40,058 nt of DNA, taken from a virus. This document shows positions 14,761-23,409 of the stretch, one piece after another. The position numbers and the translations under genes are program-made. The stretch is from positions 1 to 40,058 of IMG/VR virus record IMGVR_UViG_3300043640_000107; one strand, written 5' to 3'. Position 1 is the stretch's first letter. Each line of letters begins with the position of its first letter. The notes beneath the pieces are model-generated. The model made no database searches. It saw nothing but the letters and a program-made list of their open reading frames with translations, and was not told the origin of the DNA.

Positions 14761-16332
14761 CTACATCCACGGCCATGCCGCGTTCCGACCAGCCTCCAGT
14801 AGCGGGATCGCACGGAAGGTCGCGTCGGTGAGCCCGCCGAACTCGTGCCGGTTGCCCGTGCCGACCGCGAACGCACCATGCTGGTAGCCCCCGAGGTTGA
14901 AGCCGTACATCGGCACGTTGGTCGGTATGGCGTCGCCTACCCCGTAGGGGCCGCTCATCGTCTGCATGTCGGAGATGAGGAAGACGCGGTCGTGGCCCCG
15001 ATAGGTGGACCGCAGGGACTGGGCAATGGCGGTGCCATGGCCGACCTCGCCGGACCGCTTGACGAACCGATCCACCTCGCGGATGACCGACGCACCCTTG
15101 GCAATGGGGTGGCTGAAGACGCCGTCAGCGAAGCCACAGAGGTCCACCTGCTCGCCCTTCGCCGCGAGGGCCACACCGAAGACCGCGGCGGCCTTGAGTG
15201 GGGTCACCTTCGACCGTGAGGAGATTCCGAAGCTGGACATCGAGCCGGAGGTGTCCACGAGGATGAGAGAGCGGCCAGGCGTGGCCGGCAGGTTGATCAG
15301 GGACGCCTGTAGCGCCCGATCGAGCGGGTGACCCCAACGAAGCGACGGTGCGGCCTCGTACGCCGAGAGCCAGCGGAACGGGAACATCCGGGACTTGGCG
15401 ACCTGCTCCGGGTCGGTGAACCGCGCGGCGACCAGATCGGTAACGCCGTCCGGGACACCCGCCTCATCGAAGTTCCGCAGGTTCCGGGCGAGCGCCATGA
15501 TGCCCATCGACGGGATGAGCGCCGACCACAGCACGGACTTGTCAGCCCGCGAGCCGACCAGCGACAAGGCGTCTTCCCACGTCATGCCGGCCTCTCGCAG
15601 GTTGCTTTCCGACAGCAGCGCCTCGGGGTGCTCCACTGCGATCCGGCGAAGCTGGGCGTTGTTGCGGATCATCGTCAGCGTCTCGGGGATCTCGTCGGCG
15701 TGCCCGTGGCGGCGGTCGATAGCGTGCCGGAAGAGTGCCGACTGGCTGTCATCCTTCGGCTTCGGCCGGGTCAGTTCGAGTACGTCGGCGAAGCGGTAGC
15801 CGTGGCTCGCCGTGTCGTACTTGAGCAGGCTGCGTTCGTGATACAGCCGGACAGCGGCATCTGCGACGCCGTTCTTCACCGGCAGTGGGATGGAGCGGCC
15901 ATGGCGAGAGGTCCAGTAGGCGAGCATCTCGCCCGGCTCGTCGGCGCGCTGCAACACGGCGTCGATCATCTGCCGGTTGTCGCCGAACGCCTTCGCGGCG
16001 ATCCGGGCCTTGACCGCCTCGGCCGCGCCTACGAGGGATGCACTGCGCATGTTGGCGTCGCCCCGCAGCCAGCGCAGGAATCCGGCGGTCCACACCGGGT
16101 CGGCAACGGCCACCTCGTGGATCAGGTGCTCGTACCGCTCGTCACGGTCGCCGGCCTTCTCGTAGAAGGTGTTCTCGCCGACCATGTTGGACACCGCGAG
16201 CAGGAAGAGTTCCGAGCGGGAGTCACGGGCATAGCCCGGCCCGCCCTCGTGCGTGGTGCCGCTCGGGGTGGCCTCGGAGCGAATCGGCGAGGTGACCGAC
16301 GGGCGGGTGCCGGGCTGGTTGAACTTGCTCAT
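14761..16332 (-). CDS. rsr: Ro60/Rsr-like TROVE-VWA ring protein
   Basis: A 523-aa Ro autoantigen orthologue. Residues about 20-340 form the helical-repeat TROVE ring; residues about 355-515 form a von Willebrand A domain with a complete MIDAS: LVDTSGSMSS (D360, S362, S364), GHGTAI (T434) and LISDMQ (D455). Ro proteins bind Y RNAs on the outer face and misfolded RNA ends in the ring cavity, and in bacteria team with exoribonucleases such as PNPase. A Y RNA gene lies directly upstream on the same strand. The ATG at 16332 sits 5 nt after a terminator T-tract and has no SD; the only SD-like GGAAGG is inside the terminator stem. This suggests regulated read-through or leaderless translation. Confidence 0.95.
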   Translation of the reverse strand: MSKFNQPGTRPSVTSPIRSEATPSGTTHEGGPGYARDSRSELFLLAVSNMVGENTFYEKAGDRDERYEHLIHEVAVADPVWTAGFLRWLRGDANMRSASLVGAAEAVKARIAAKAFGDNRQMIDAVLQRADEPGEMLAYWTSRHGRSIPLPVKNGVADAAVRLYHERSLLKYDTASHGYRFADVLELTRPKPKDDSQSALFRHAIDRRHGHADEIPETLTMIRNNAQLRRIAVEHPEALLSESNLREAGMTWEDALSLVGSRADKSVLWSALIPSMGIMALARNLRNFDEAGVPDGVTDLVAARFTDPEQVAKSRMFPFRWLSAYEAAPSLRWGHPLDRALQASLINLPATPGRSLILVDTSGSMSSFGISSRSKVTPLKAAAVFGVALAAKGEQVDLCGFADGVFSHPIAKGASVIREVDRFVKRSGEVGHGTAIAQSLRSTYRGHDRVFLISDMQTMSGPYGVGDAIPTNVPMYGFNLGGYQHGAFAVGTGNRHEFGGLTDATFRAIPLLEAGRNAAWPWM

Positions 16333-16337
16333 CGACG

Positions 16338-16366
16338 AAAAAGCCCTTCCGGGTGGGGAAGGGCTT
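16338..16366 (-). terminator. Intrinsic terminator between Y RNA and Ro gene
   Basis: On the minus strand AAGCCCTTCC (16366-16357), loop CCACCC, then GGAAGGGCTT (16350-16341): a perfect 10-bp stem with five T (16342-16338). It would give the Y RNA its 3' end. Segment GCCCTTCC (16364-16357) is also the 3' half of the closing Y RNA helix, so the two folds exclude each other. Confidence 0.9.
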
Positions 16367-16544
16367 CACGCGGGCCGGCTGGAGACCAGCCGAGAACCAA
16401 GGCGACCGTGGACATCATTTGCTCTGCCAGTTGAGCGACGGCACCCTCACGGCTGCCGACAGGACTCGAACCTGCAATCCAATAAGGAAGTAGCCACAGT
16501 CTGCACACAGGCTGATCACCAGCCGGTCCGCGTTTCGCCCCTCC
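16357..16544 (-). ncRNA. yrlA: Y RNA, YrlA type, with permuted tRNA-like module
   Basis: Minus-strand folding read from the sequence. Helix P1 is GGAGGGGC (16544-16537) with GCCCUUCC (16364-16357). A 4x4 purine-rich loop follows, GAAA (16536-16533) opposite UGAA (16368-16365). P2 is 14 nt (16532-16519 with 16382-16369), with one A-C mismatch. P3 is GACUGUGG (16501-16494) with CCACGGUC (16411-16404). Inside lies a T-arm, GCAGG-UUCGAGU-CCUGU (16475-16459), then CGGCAGCC (16458-16451), a short loop, GGUGCCG (16445-16439), and a D-arm, GCUC-AACUGGCA-GAGC (16436-16421). T-arm, 3' acceptor, 5' acceptor, D-arm is a circular permutation of tRNA, the published hallmark of YrlA RNAs. GGCGAA at the P1 junction matches the core of the bacterial Ro-binding motif. 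Exact ends are inferred from pairing. Confidence 0.88.
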
Positions 16545-16614
16545 GAGAACAAGAACGACCCTGGGTGTAATTCAAAGCAGGAAGTAACCCCGGGTCTTCA
16601 CATAGGAGGTGCGC

Positions 16615-17163
16615 TCAGAACGTAACCCTGGAGGGCTCCTCGGCGCAAACGTGATGCTGCCAGTGTTCGCCCGCGATGAGCCGGCTGATCGTCGTGTGGG
16701 CGCACCCGAGACGTCGAGCGATGCTGCGGCACGACTCCCCGTCGGCATACCTACGCCGAGCTTGGGCGATGTCCGCATCGGTGAGTCGCCGGACCGTGGC
16801 CACGAACCGGGCGATGTGCTCCTCGGATCGGGTGCCTCGCCAGTTTCCCGGACCCGCCGGGACGATCCGGCCCTTGCGTCGAGCGTCGCGATTGTTGTGC
16901 TCGGCGGTGCCAAGGAACAGGTGGTCCGGTCTGACGCACCTCGGGTTGTCGCAATGGTGGCAGACGAAAAAGCCGTCTGGGATCGATCCGAAGTGCAGCA
17001 CCCAGGAATACCGGTGTGCCCTGATCGGAGGCTGGCCGCTCGTCGCATTGAACTGACCGTAGCCGCTGGTGTTGAGACTGGCCGTCCACTCCCAGCAGCC
17101 GATTTCGACCTTGTGGACGTGTCGCCAGAACCGCTCGTAGGCGGGTGCGTGCTTGCCGGGCAT
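16615..17163 (-). CDS. HNH endonuclease with C-terminal HTH
   Basis: A 182-aa protein. The HNH core is VCHHCDNPRCVRPDHLFLGT followed by AEHNNRDARRKG (HNH_3 type), with metal and catalytic His/Asn in place. A later helix-turn-helix, DADIAQARRRYADGES then SIARRLGCAHTTISRLIAG, fits a DNA-recognition domain. The start at 17163 has AGGAG 7 nt upstream. This two-domain layout is typical of free-standing homing-type HNH enzymes; it may have inserted next to the Y RNA locus. It ends 70 nt before the Y RNA helix. Confidence 0.9.
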   Translation of the reverse strand: MPGKHAPAYERFWRHVHKVEIGCWEWTASLNTSGYGQFNATSGQPPIRAHRYSWVLHFGSIPDGFFVCHHCDNPRCVRPDHLFLGTAEHNNRDARRKGRIVPAGPGNWRGTRSEEHIARFVATVRRLTDADIAQARRRYADGESCRSIARRLGCAHTTISRLIAGEHWQHHVCAEEPSRVTF

Positions 17164-17325
17164 CCCCATGCTCCTGATCGCGAAGTCGGCAACCGAGCGG
17201 GCATGAGCCCGCTGCGGTTGTGGATTCGCTTCCGAGATCAGGTTCCCGTTGAGGGATGTTCGCACCGGAAGGCGACCCTGACGGTAGCCCGACCCAACAC
17301 CCAACGCAAACGGGTACCGACGTCG

Positions 17326-17535
17326 CTACGTGCCCTCAGTCGCTTCGCCTGCCCGGTAGTCCTGCCAGTCGCCGGATGTCAGGTCCACCCACCCGACCTG
17401 CTCGCCAGCGTCGATGATGCAGAGGTTGCCGACCTGGCTGCGGACCAACCGGGTCGACGGGTACCGTACCGCCACCTCGGACAGGGACTCGGCGAGAACG
17501 GCTACCGGGCAGCCTTCCCGGCGTATCCGGGTCAC
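17326..17535 (-). CDS. Unknown small protein, 69 aa
   Basis: Starts at GTG 17535, overlapping the preceding stop as GTGA. The sequence is mainly beta, with LVRSQVGNLCIIDAGEQ and VGWVDLTSGDWQDY. Third positions are strongly G/C. No family recognised. It closes the run that begins at 22.0 kb; 160 nt without a gene separate it from the HNH gene. Confidence 0.7.
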   Translation of the reverse strand: MTRIRREGCPVAVLAESLSEVAVRYPSTRLVRSQVGNLCIIDAGEQVGWVDLTSGDWQDYRAGEATEGT

Positions 17536-22148: not shown

Positions 22149-22427
22149 TCAGCCGGTCGCCTCGACACGCTCCCGCAACGAGCGGGTGTGGATGAACACC
22201 GTCAGGCACGGGCCGATGTACCGGCGACCCACCCGCAGGTTGAGTCCGCCGACGGTGCCCGTTCGGGTGCGCCAGAGGCCGATGTGACTCCCGGGCGGGG
22301 TGCCGACATACAAGGCGCCCCGGATCCAGCGGCCGAACGTCTCGACCACGATGTCTCCGCCGCGCTGACCGTAGTCCCGATATCCCGGCCGGCCGGGGTA
22401 CCACTCACCGCGGGTCGTCACCTTCAT
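22149..22427 (-). CDS. Unknown basic beta-rich protein, 92 aa
   Basis: A 92-aa Arg/Gly-rich protein, RGEWYPGRPGYRDYGQRG then IGLWRTRTGTVGG. Its ATG overlaps the integrase stop (TGATG). It is not a recognised excisionase. Its pairing with integrase makes a recombination accessory possible, but nothing in the sequence proves it. Confidence 0.7.
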   Translation of the reverse strand: MKVTTRGEWYPGRPGYRDYGQRGGDIVVETFGRWIRGALYVGTPPGSHIGLWRTRTGTVGGLNLRVGRRYIGPCLTVFIHTRSLRERVEATG

Positions 22428-23380
22428 CAGTCCTCCGTAGCGGTAGCAGCGGCAACGAGATACGACGGGTCGCGGTCGAGTGACTGCCGTGCGCGGTCGT
22501 ATCCCTGAGTGGTTCGGGGGTCTACGTGCCCCATGGCGTACTGGCGTTCCTCCAGCGACGCTCCGCGCTCGCGGGCCAGTGTGGCCCAGGCGTGCCGGAA
22601 GCTGTGCGGGGTGATCTGCTCGGCCGCGGGTATCCCGGCTTCCCGCGCGCAGCGGCGGACGAAGCGGGCCACCGAGTGCCGGTCGATGCGCTTGCCGTCG
22701 GCGGTTACGAACAGCGGTCCGTCCGTGCGTCCGGCGAGCATGGCGTCCAGCACGGCGGACAGGCTCGGCGGCACCGCCCGGGTGCGCGTCTTGCCGCCCT
22801 TCATCCGCAGCTTGACGGTGCGGTGTCCGCTGTCGAAGCCGAGGTCGGCCGCGTCCAGCGCGCAGACCTCGGAGACCCGGGCGCCGATGGAGACCAGGAA
22901 CTTCGCGAGGGCTATGGCGCACTCGGTGGACAGGTAGCCGTCGGTCGCCGCGGCACGGATGACGGCGGTCGCTTCGACGTCGGTCATGCCGACGGTGGGG
23001 GACTGCCTGTCAATCTTGGGCCGGCGGACCCTGGCGACGGGGTTGGTGACGACCTTGCCGGCGTCGAGTAGGTAGCCGTACCACGAGGAGAGGGATGCGA
23101 GTTTGCGGGCGACGGTGGCGCGGGCCAGCGGCTTGCCGAGCCTGTTAGCGGCCGGGCTGTTGGCCAACCACGCCGCGTACTTGTCGATGTCCGGTCGGGT
23201 CATCAGGGTGGGATCTTGGTCGCCGCACCAACCGGCGAACTGCTTGATGTCGCGCTGGTAGGCGTCGCGGGTGTGGGCGGACTCGCGGAATGACCAGAGC
23301 CACGCCGCGGTGAGCGAGGCGATCTCGTTGGGCGTTTCAGTGCTGATCTCGCCGCTGGTGATCGGTTGCAGGCCCGTCAT
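22427..23380 (-). CDS. int: Tyrosine recombinase/integrase
   Basis: A 317-aa integrase. The N-terminal SAM-like core-binding domain spans about 20-115 (FRESAHTRDAYQRDIKQFAG). The catalytic domain has Arg in SIGARVSEVCALD, Lys in RMKGGKTR, the HSFRHAWAT box (H-x-x-R), GHVDP and the nucleophile in TTQGYDRA. All key residues are present, so it should be active for integration at an attB site. The start at ATG 23380 has GGGGAG 8 nt upstream. It sits inside a run of small overlapping genes rather than next to a repressor. Confidence 0.95.
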   Translation of the reverse strand: MTGLQPITSGEISTETPNEIASLTAAWLWSFRESAHTRDAYQRDIKQFAGWCGDQDPTLMTRPDIDKYAAWLANSPAANRLGKPLARATVARKLASLSSWYGYLLDAGKVVTNPVARVRRPKIDRQSPTVGMTDVEATAVIRAAATDGYLSTECAIALAKFLVSIGARVSEVCALDAADLGFDSGHRTVKLRMKGGKTRTRAVPPSLSAVLDAMLAGRTDGPLFVTADGKRIDRHSVARFVRRCAREAGIPAAEQITPHSFRHAWATLARERGASLEERQYAMGHVDPRTTQGYDRARQSLDRDPSYLVAAATATED

Positions 23381-23409
23381 AGTTGATCTCCCCTCGGGCA
23401 TAACAGAAG

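Follow-up and report, generated by a model that had tools for sequence, protein, structure and literature searches.

Mutually exclusive helices linking two Y RNAs to the start of a viral Ro gene suggest a cis-acting RNA attenuator

Does the RNA upstream of a viral Ro gene control how much Ro is made, and is this control tied to the Y RNAs encoded directly before the gene? The locus lies in a window of 40,058 nucleotides that comprises an entire IMG/VR virus record (IMGVR_UViG_3300043640_000107) from a bacterial virus. On the minus strand, positions 14761..16332 encode a Ro-like protein of 523 amino acids with a TROVE domain (Pfam PF05731, 55.5 bits against a cut-off of 23), whose best stretch is at residues 250-327. 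The ATG is at 16332-16330 and the N-terminal MSKFN aligns with relatives. The nearest named actinophage homologues of this Ro share 41-47% identity with it, and most carry the annotation 'Ro-like RNA binding protein'. The virus is probably temperate, as judged from a phage integrase ORF at 22427-23401 (Pfam). A megablast search of the window against phages returned no match, and ARAGORN found none in the window.

A sequence-only reading of this locus had proposed a single Y RNA that is closed by pairing of GGAGGGGC with GCCCUUCC, the latter being alternatively able to pair with GGAAGGGC as a terminator in front of Ro. The three strands lie exactly where they had been placed on the minus strand, at 16544-16537, 16364-16357 and 16350-16343, respectively. 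The hairpin of GCCCUUCC and GGAAGGGC is followed by five T (16342-16338), and the Ro start codon was correctly placed 5 nt past this T-tract. Folded alone, the hairpin has 10 pairs when extended and a predicted energy of -17.0 kcal/mol (z -5.1, 0/200 shuffles). Together with the five T it has the G+C-rich hairpin and U-tract that define an intrinsic terminator; a simple terminator scanner did not list it. The Ro gene had also been said to have no SD outside the stem. Indeed, the sole candidate, GGAAGG at 16350-16345, lies inside the hairpin 3' arm, and we found nothing SD-like elsewhere. A separate promoter between 16332 and 16356, which had been named as evidence against attenuation, received no support, as a scan confined to sigma-70-like sites gave 0 in 15800-17400.

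The model with a single Y RNA was discarded when the leaders of relatives revealed an overlooked Y RNA, Y1, upstream of the one described before, which we call Y2. Y1 (16613-16537, minus strand) is a compact Y RNA without a tRNA-like module, delineated by its fold and by alignment with 19 relatives. Its P1 stem pairs GCACCUCC (16612-16605), placed by folds that include Y1, with GGAGGGGC, and the Y1 motifs GGUUACUUC and UUGUUCUCGG are located between or beside these two strands. TACTTC and CTCGG are invariant in the alignment of 20 sequences, for which the RNAalifold consensus gives P1 as a 6-pair helix with two-sided changes at 2 pairs. Y2 (16384..16517, minus strand) is a Y RNA with a permuted tRNA-like module, recognized by its folds and by a match to the Rfam YrlA model (RF02553) that runs from end to end and includes the permuted tRNA-like arms (16393-16500, model positions 1-114 of 114, E 3e-5), with a score of 32.4 bits that is below the gathering score of 69. 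No Rfam family reached its gathering cut-off over the whole window. T-loop and D-arm motifs are present in 34/49 cluster representatives of the relatives described below. Both Y1 and Y2 adjoin the Ro (TROVE) gene.

Comparison with relatives assigned the P1 stem of Y2 itself to GAUCAGCC (16517-16510) and GGCUGGUC (16391-16384). The pairing of GGAGGGGC with GCCCUUCC, which had been taken to close the Y RNA, is therefore real but forms an outer extension of Y2. This pairing, PA, continues in an outer helix with ACGCGG-A-CCGGCUGG (16519..16533) on the 5' side and CCAGCCGG-C-CCGCGU (16368..16382) on the 3' side, both on the minus strand and both seen in folds and in the comparison of PA among relatives. 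The full extended helix reads GGAGGGGC-gaa-ACGCGG-a-CCGGCUGG-u-GAUCAGCC opposite GGCUGGUC-u-CCAGCCGG-c-CCGCGU-gaa-GCCCUUCC.

Four strands thus placed by sequence and folds form a chain of exclusive helices. Strand 1 (GCACCUCC) and strand 2 (GGAGGGGC) make Y1 P1 (1:2), strand 2 and strand 3 (GCCCUUCC) make PA (2:3), and strand 3 and strand 4 (GGAAGGGC) make the hairpin (3:4). Strand 2 can be paired with strand 1 or strand 3, and strand 3 with strand 2 or strand 4; the helices exclude each other because the strands share bases. The proposal that the closing helix and the SD-burying hairpin are mutually exclusive is supported by the folds of the window and, among many relatives, by pairing that is specific to each locus. 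The wiring proposed before survives in its alternative helices but not in its single Y RNA, because GGAGGGGC doubles as the Y1 3' strand.

Attenuation by helices that exclude each other is a known kind of control, as is self-regulation by RNA-binding proteins. In attenuators of the trp-operon type the alternative helices are 1:2, 2:3 and 3:4, and 2:3 prevents the terminator. The Ro leader has the same chain with 2:3 acting against the terminator, but its strands 1 and 2 belong to a noncoding Y RNA where the trp type has a leader peptide region, its strand 4 has the added role of burying the SD, and as sensor we propose the RNA-binding protein that the gene encodes. We slightly favor the interpretation that two Y RNAs make up a cis-acting RNA attenuator in the leader upstream of Ro, with Ro on Y1 as the signal. 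Attenuation is supported by the comparisons below, and a link between Y RNA and Ro output, as suggested by the sequence-only reading, is plausible.

The 188-nt fold closed by GGAGGGGC and GCCCUUCC has a minimum free energy (MFE) of -102.6 kcal/mol, compared with a shuffle mean of -73.8 kcal/mol (z -7.2), and 0/200 shuffles were as stable. The predicted fold depends on the assumed start of the RNA because strand 2 is also the Y1 3' strand. For the 207-nt stretch to which the locus had first been limited, which lacks Y1, the MFE structure is the extended Y2 with its closing helix and the terminator hairpin is lost. When Y1 is included, the MFE fold has Y1 P1-type pairing and the hairpin. The energies with Y1 are -131.3 kcal/mol for the PA-forced state, -133.6 for Y1 P1 plus hairpin and -134.4 for the overall MFE; forcing other exact pair sets made the PA state of the window lower by 0.8. 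The model predicts near balance, with the rival states of the window about 1-3 kcal/mol apart, and we take these values as a prediction and claim no more.

These folds also bear on an alternative in which Y1 is uninvolved, and Ro or a partner binds Y2 and stabilizes its extended stem; PA would then beat the hairpin and Ro output would rise (positive coupling). The MFE structure obtained without Y1, an extended Y2 that has lost the hairpin, speaks for this alternative, and Y2 leaders carry the same conserved core motifs as Y1. However, the MFE contains the hairpin once Y1 is in the transcript, the Y1 3' motif is found in 113/126 leaders with Y2, and Ro on Y2 P1 is compatible with either state. 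We consider control through Y2 improbable and return to an attenuator that reads Y1. In a growing transcript of the window Y1 P1 is predicted at 0.90 at the end of Y1, PA at 1.00 and Y1 P1 at 0.00 once strand 3 is out, and the hairpin at 0.97 and Y1 P1 at 0.96 once strand 4 is out. The predicted order fits the need of an attenuator, with a decision point between strand 3 and strand 4.

To follow the layout beyond the window we collected Ro relatives from IMG/VR (15 loci and a further 80), GTDB genomes (80) and 11 phage records. The 187 leaders, the window included, were reduced to 171 by dropping leaders that were <200 nt long or whose last 200 nt duplicated another. Another 45/171 had no Y2 motif by regular expression or no start codon in place, which left 126, and 1/126 (L130) lacked a hairpin of 4 pairs, leaving 125 loci. 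For statistics we used 49 Ro clusters with <70% identity (single linkage). A Y RNA 3' motif is found 32-95 nt before Ro in 126/171 distinct leaders, and 113 of these 126 have a second motif upstream. The layout with two Y RNAs upstream of Ro recurs in actinobacteria and their phages. In 39/49 representatives and in 85/112 loci, PA contains no fewer than 4 pairs between the 3' strand of Y1 and the 5' arm of the hairpin; 5/49 representatives have no PA pair that joins both strands. In an exploratory look at 13 leaders with variant motifs, mostly from phages, in which the strands may include Y2 P1, PA-like pairing is also strong in L010, L012 and L041.

In the 17 representatives with a compact Y1, the bases of PA that also belong to another helix number, as a median, 7 for the hairpin and 6 for Y1 P1. 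For transcripts that end at strand 3, PA is predicted at >0.5 in 16/17 of these representatives and in 38/40 loci. In equilibrium folds of the full length, PA is favored in 4/17 and the hairpin in 13/17, hence the predicted balance between the two varies among relatives; the energy gap between the forced states exceeds 5 kcal/mol in 7/17. Holding Y1 P1 gave the hairpin at >0.5 in 39/39 cases, partly by construction, in a set for which the Y1 5' strand was sought within 110 nt only and long Y1s were missed.

We then compared the duplex energy of strands from the same locus with that of permuted partners across the 49 clusters (10,000 permutations). In this swap test the positive controls gave z -17.4 (hairpin arms), z -14.1 (Y2 P1) and z -2.8 (Y1 P1, which is nearly invariant). 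The 22-nt PA strand paired with everything up to the hairpin loop had an energy of -22.3 with its own partner and -15.9 with swapped partners (z -13.7), and the 9-nt Y1 3' strand paired with the 5' arm of the hairpin had -11.6 and -10.0, respectively (z -6.0, p 1e-4). Controls were null, with z +1.0 for the Y2 3' strand and the hairpin 5' arm, +0.4 for the Y1 5' region and the hairpin 3' arm, +0.2 for upstream sequence and the hairpin 5' arm, and -0.2 for the Y1 5' region and the hairpin 5' arm. This pattern was kept in 20/20 repeated draws (p<0.01). Over its initial 6 nt, which are near-invariant and GGGAGG in most leaders, the 3' strand of Y1 gave z only -2.8 and 15/20 draws. At a cut of 60% identity, which left just 6 clusters, there was no signal. 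Examples of such pairing within a locus are GGGAGCCACGGCCACA with UGUGACCGUGGCUCCC in L171, GGGGAGU with ACUCCCC in L049, GGGGAGC with GCUCCCC in L117, and GGAGGGGC with GCCCUUCC in the window.

As a control for ancestry, own and swapped partners were compared in 56 disjoint pairs of nearest relatives. The own partner was better by 36 to 6 for PA (p 1.4e-6), by 20 to 7 for the 9 nt with the hairpin arm (p 0.0096) and by 29 to 9 for the linker with the pre-hairpin segment, that is, the outer PA beyond the hairpin arm (p 8e-4); the initial 6 nt of the Y1 3' strand gave 6 to 7. Controls gave 15 to 14, 19 to 25 and 17 to 28, and the signs for Y2_3:Y1_3 were 13 to 13. One control, the Y1 arm with the hairpin 5' arm, leaned in the direction of PA (28 to 16, p 0.048) and was not significant in a new set of loci. 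This set came from two further scans with 124 loci, of which 45 leaders were left after removal of 4 uncertain starts, 3 skipped loci and duplicates, and 42/45 after dropping proteins at least 90% identical to the first set; 18/42 had no Y2 motif, and the set gave 16 clusters. The same pipeline returned p 1e-4 for PA, 0.0004 for the 22 nt with the hairpin arm and 0.0043 for the 9 nt with the hairpin arm in the 16 new clusters, and p 0.39-0.83 for the four controls. Nearest-relative pairs of the new set gave 7 to 0 for PA and 4 to 1 for the 9 nt (p 0.19). Base composition or shared ancestry alone was rejected as the cause of PA pairing, given the null controls and the nearest-relative contrasts, with the one leaning control noted above. 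The comparative sequences support the outer PA helix well; the GGGAG core pairs hardly vary, and support for these comes only from their register with covarying neighbors.

Could PA merely be a long stem that stabilizes Y2 or helps to process it, next to an ordinary terminator or SD hairpin, with the shared strand reflecting a compact layout and no regulation? Much of the covariation does lie in the outer PA beyond the hairpin arm (the 29 to 9 contrast), and the near-invariant core shows none of its own. However, the 9-nt Y1 3' strand prefers its own hairpin arm in the swap test, in nearest relatives and in the new clusters (z -6.0; 20 to 7; p 0.0043), and the overlap recurs in 39/49 representatives. 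We therefore regard a purely structural role as unlikely, and continue with the attenuator.

In 47/49 representatives and 117/125 loci, and again in 22/24 loci of the new set, at least half of the SD is part of the paired 3' arm, whereas a T-tract (at least 5 U in 8 nt) is present in 20/49 representatives and 41/125 loci. The MFE of the leader tail has a median z of -2.7 and is below -2 in 31/49. SD burial is a common feature of the relatives and the T-tract is not. Because only 20/49 have the T-tract, termination cannot be the common output, and we rejected it as such. In the Streptomyces phages L016, L017, L020 and L022 the last Y RNA is followed by a clear terminator-like hairpin and, further on, by a separate SD (GTAGGAGG), while the group of the window has a merged hairpin.

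From the sequences we infer that cells use the exclusive helices as a switch, in the following manner. Strand 2 with strand 1 would complete Y1, a stem of the type that Ro proteins bind, and leave strand 3 free for strand 4; the resulting hairpin would hide the Ro ribosome-binding site and, here with its T-tract, terminate transcription. Strand 2 with strand 3 would instead form PA, a long coaxial extension of Y2, exposing strand 4 with the ribosome-binding site so that Ro could be made. When Ro is scarce and Y1 unoccupied, the emerging strand 3 would displace strand 1 by branch migration and turn Ro on. When Ro is plentiful it would hold Y1 P1 closed, the hairpin would form and only the Y RNAs would be released; Ro would thus repress its own synthesis when Y1 is occupied. 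The lower stem of Y RNAs is where Ro proteins bind (PMC4726728, excerpted text) and PA must open Y1 P1, and for these reasons we favor occupancy of Y1 by Ro as the signal; its binding there, the kinetics, termination and the sign of the effect are likewise presumed. The sequence-only reading had expected more read-through into Ro when Ro or a partner stabilizes the Y RNA. Since strand 2, over which the helices compete, is part of a second Y RNA in the chain 1:2, 2:3, 3:4, the simplest sign reverses, and the sign that we favor is that Ro on Y1 would block PA, the hairpin would form and Ro would fall.

The same helices might respond to a trigger other than Ro, with translation, an RNA substrate, PNPase or temperature setting Y1 or PA. 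In the window, an ORF for an HNH endonuclease (16615..17304, minus strand; Pfam HNH_3, E 1.7e-14) is directly upstream of Y1, and it ends with its stop codon (16617-16615) 2 nt ahead of the Y1 5' strand (16612). Within 16617-16605, which spans stop codon and strand 1, the gap between the two is too small for a promoter, and a terminating ribosome could cover strand 1. A ribosome that ends the HNH gene so close to strand 1 (16612-16605) could block Y1 and favor PA, comparable to leader-peptide attenuation, and most relatives share SD burial and not the T-tract. However, many leaders have further Y-like 5' motifs before Y1, which argues against a ribosome at a stop codon as a general trigger, and Ro is the natural ligand of Y RNA, as established for Rsr (PMC4726728, in part). 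We give a trigger other than Ro a small chance overall, and retain Ro as the signal; in the window, the ribosome at the HNH stop codon would reach strand 1 and may be a second input.

More broadly, and with somewhat less than even confidence, we propose that in actinobacteria and their phages the Y RNAs, besides being partners of Ro, are the sensor of a cis switch: depending on whether Ro occupies Y1, a transcript in the making would end up as free Y RNAs or as Ro mRNA. If this is true, one leader would keep the Ro particle's protein and RNA in balance, Y RNAs would have a cis-regulatory role with many natural variants available for testing, and it would be clear why phages carry Ro and its Y RNAs as a single unit. 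In autoregulated leaders of the ribosomal-protein type, too, a protein controls its own synthesis by way of a leader similar to the RNA that it normally targets; the Ro leader differs in that it includes the actual partner RNAs of the protein, and these can be set free as products.

In Deinococcus radiodurans, a bacterial Ro, Rsr, likewise has a partner Y RNA with an Rsr-bound lower stem, but there the Y RNA is scaffold and gate for PNPase, and the excerpted text describes no attenuator (PMC4726728). The Salmonella rsr-yrlBA-rtcBA operon also encodes Ro and Y RNAs together, one with a tRNA-like domain, but by the operon name its Y RNA genes come after rsr, and control is by the activator RtcR (PMC7790460, in part). 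A paper that proposes Y RNAs and Rsr in a Listeria phage refers, in its excerpted text, to Chen et al. 2014 on mycobacteriophage Y RNAs (PMC12282133). Among the open-access papers searched, as far as their excerpts go, we found none that treats Y RNAs as a cis switch for Ro, and Chen et al. 2014 may already mention it. A conserved switch made from Y RNAs would, if true, answer how the ratio of Ro to Y RNA is set and why the genes stay adjacent, which the excerpted texts do not explain.

The leaders vary further around this layout. Phage Kela (L024) has a gene annotated as RNA ligase immediately before Ro, and the 600 nt that precede Ro contain no 5' motif of a Y RNA. Many leaders, L001 among them, have 3 or 4 tandem Y-like 5' motifs within 600 nt of Ro, and arrays of more than two Y RNAs appear to be common by motif. 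In several Streptomyces, Gordonia and Arthrobacter phages (L016, L017, L018, L020, L021 and L022), Ro is located beside or within clusters of tRNA genes.
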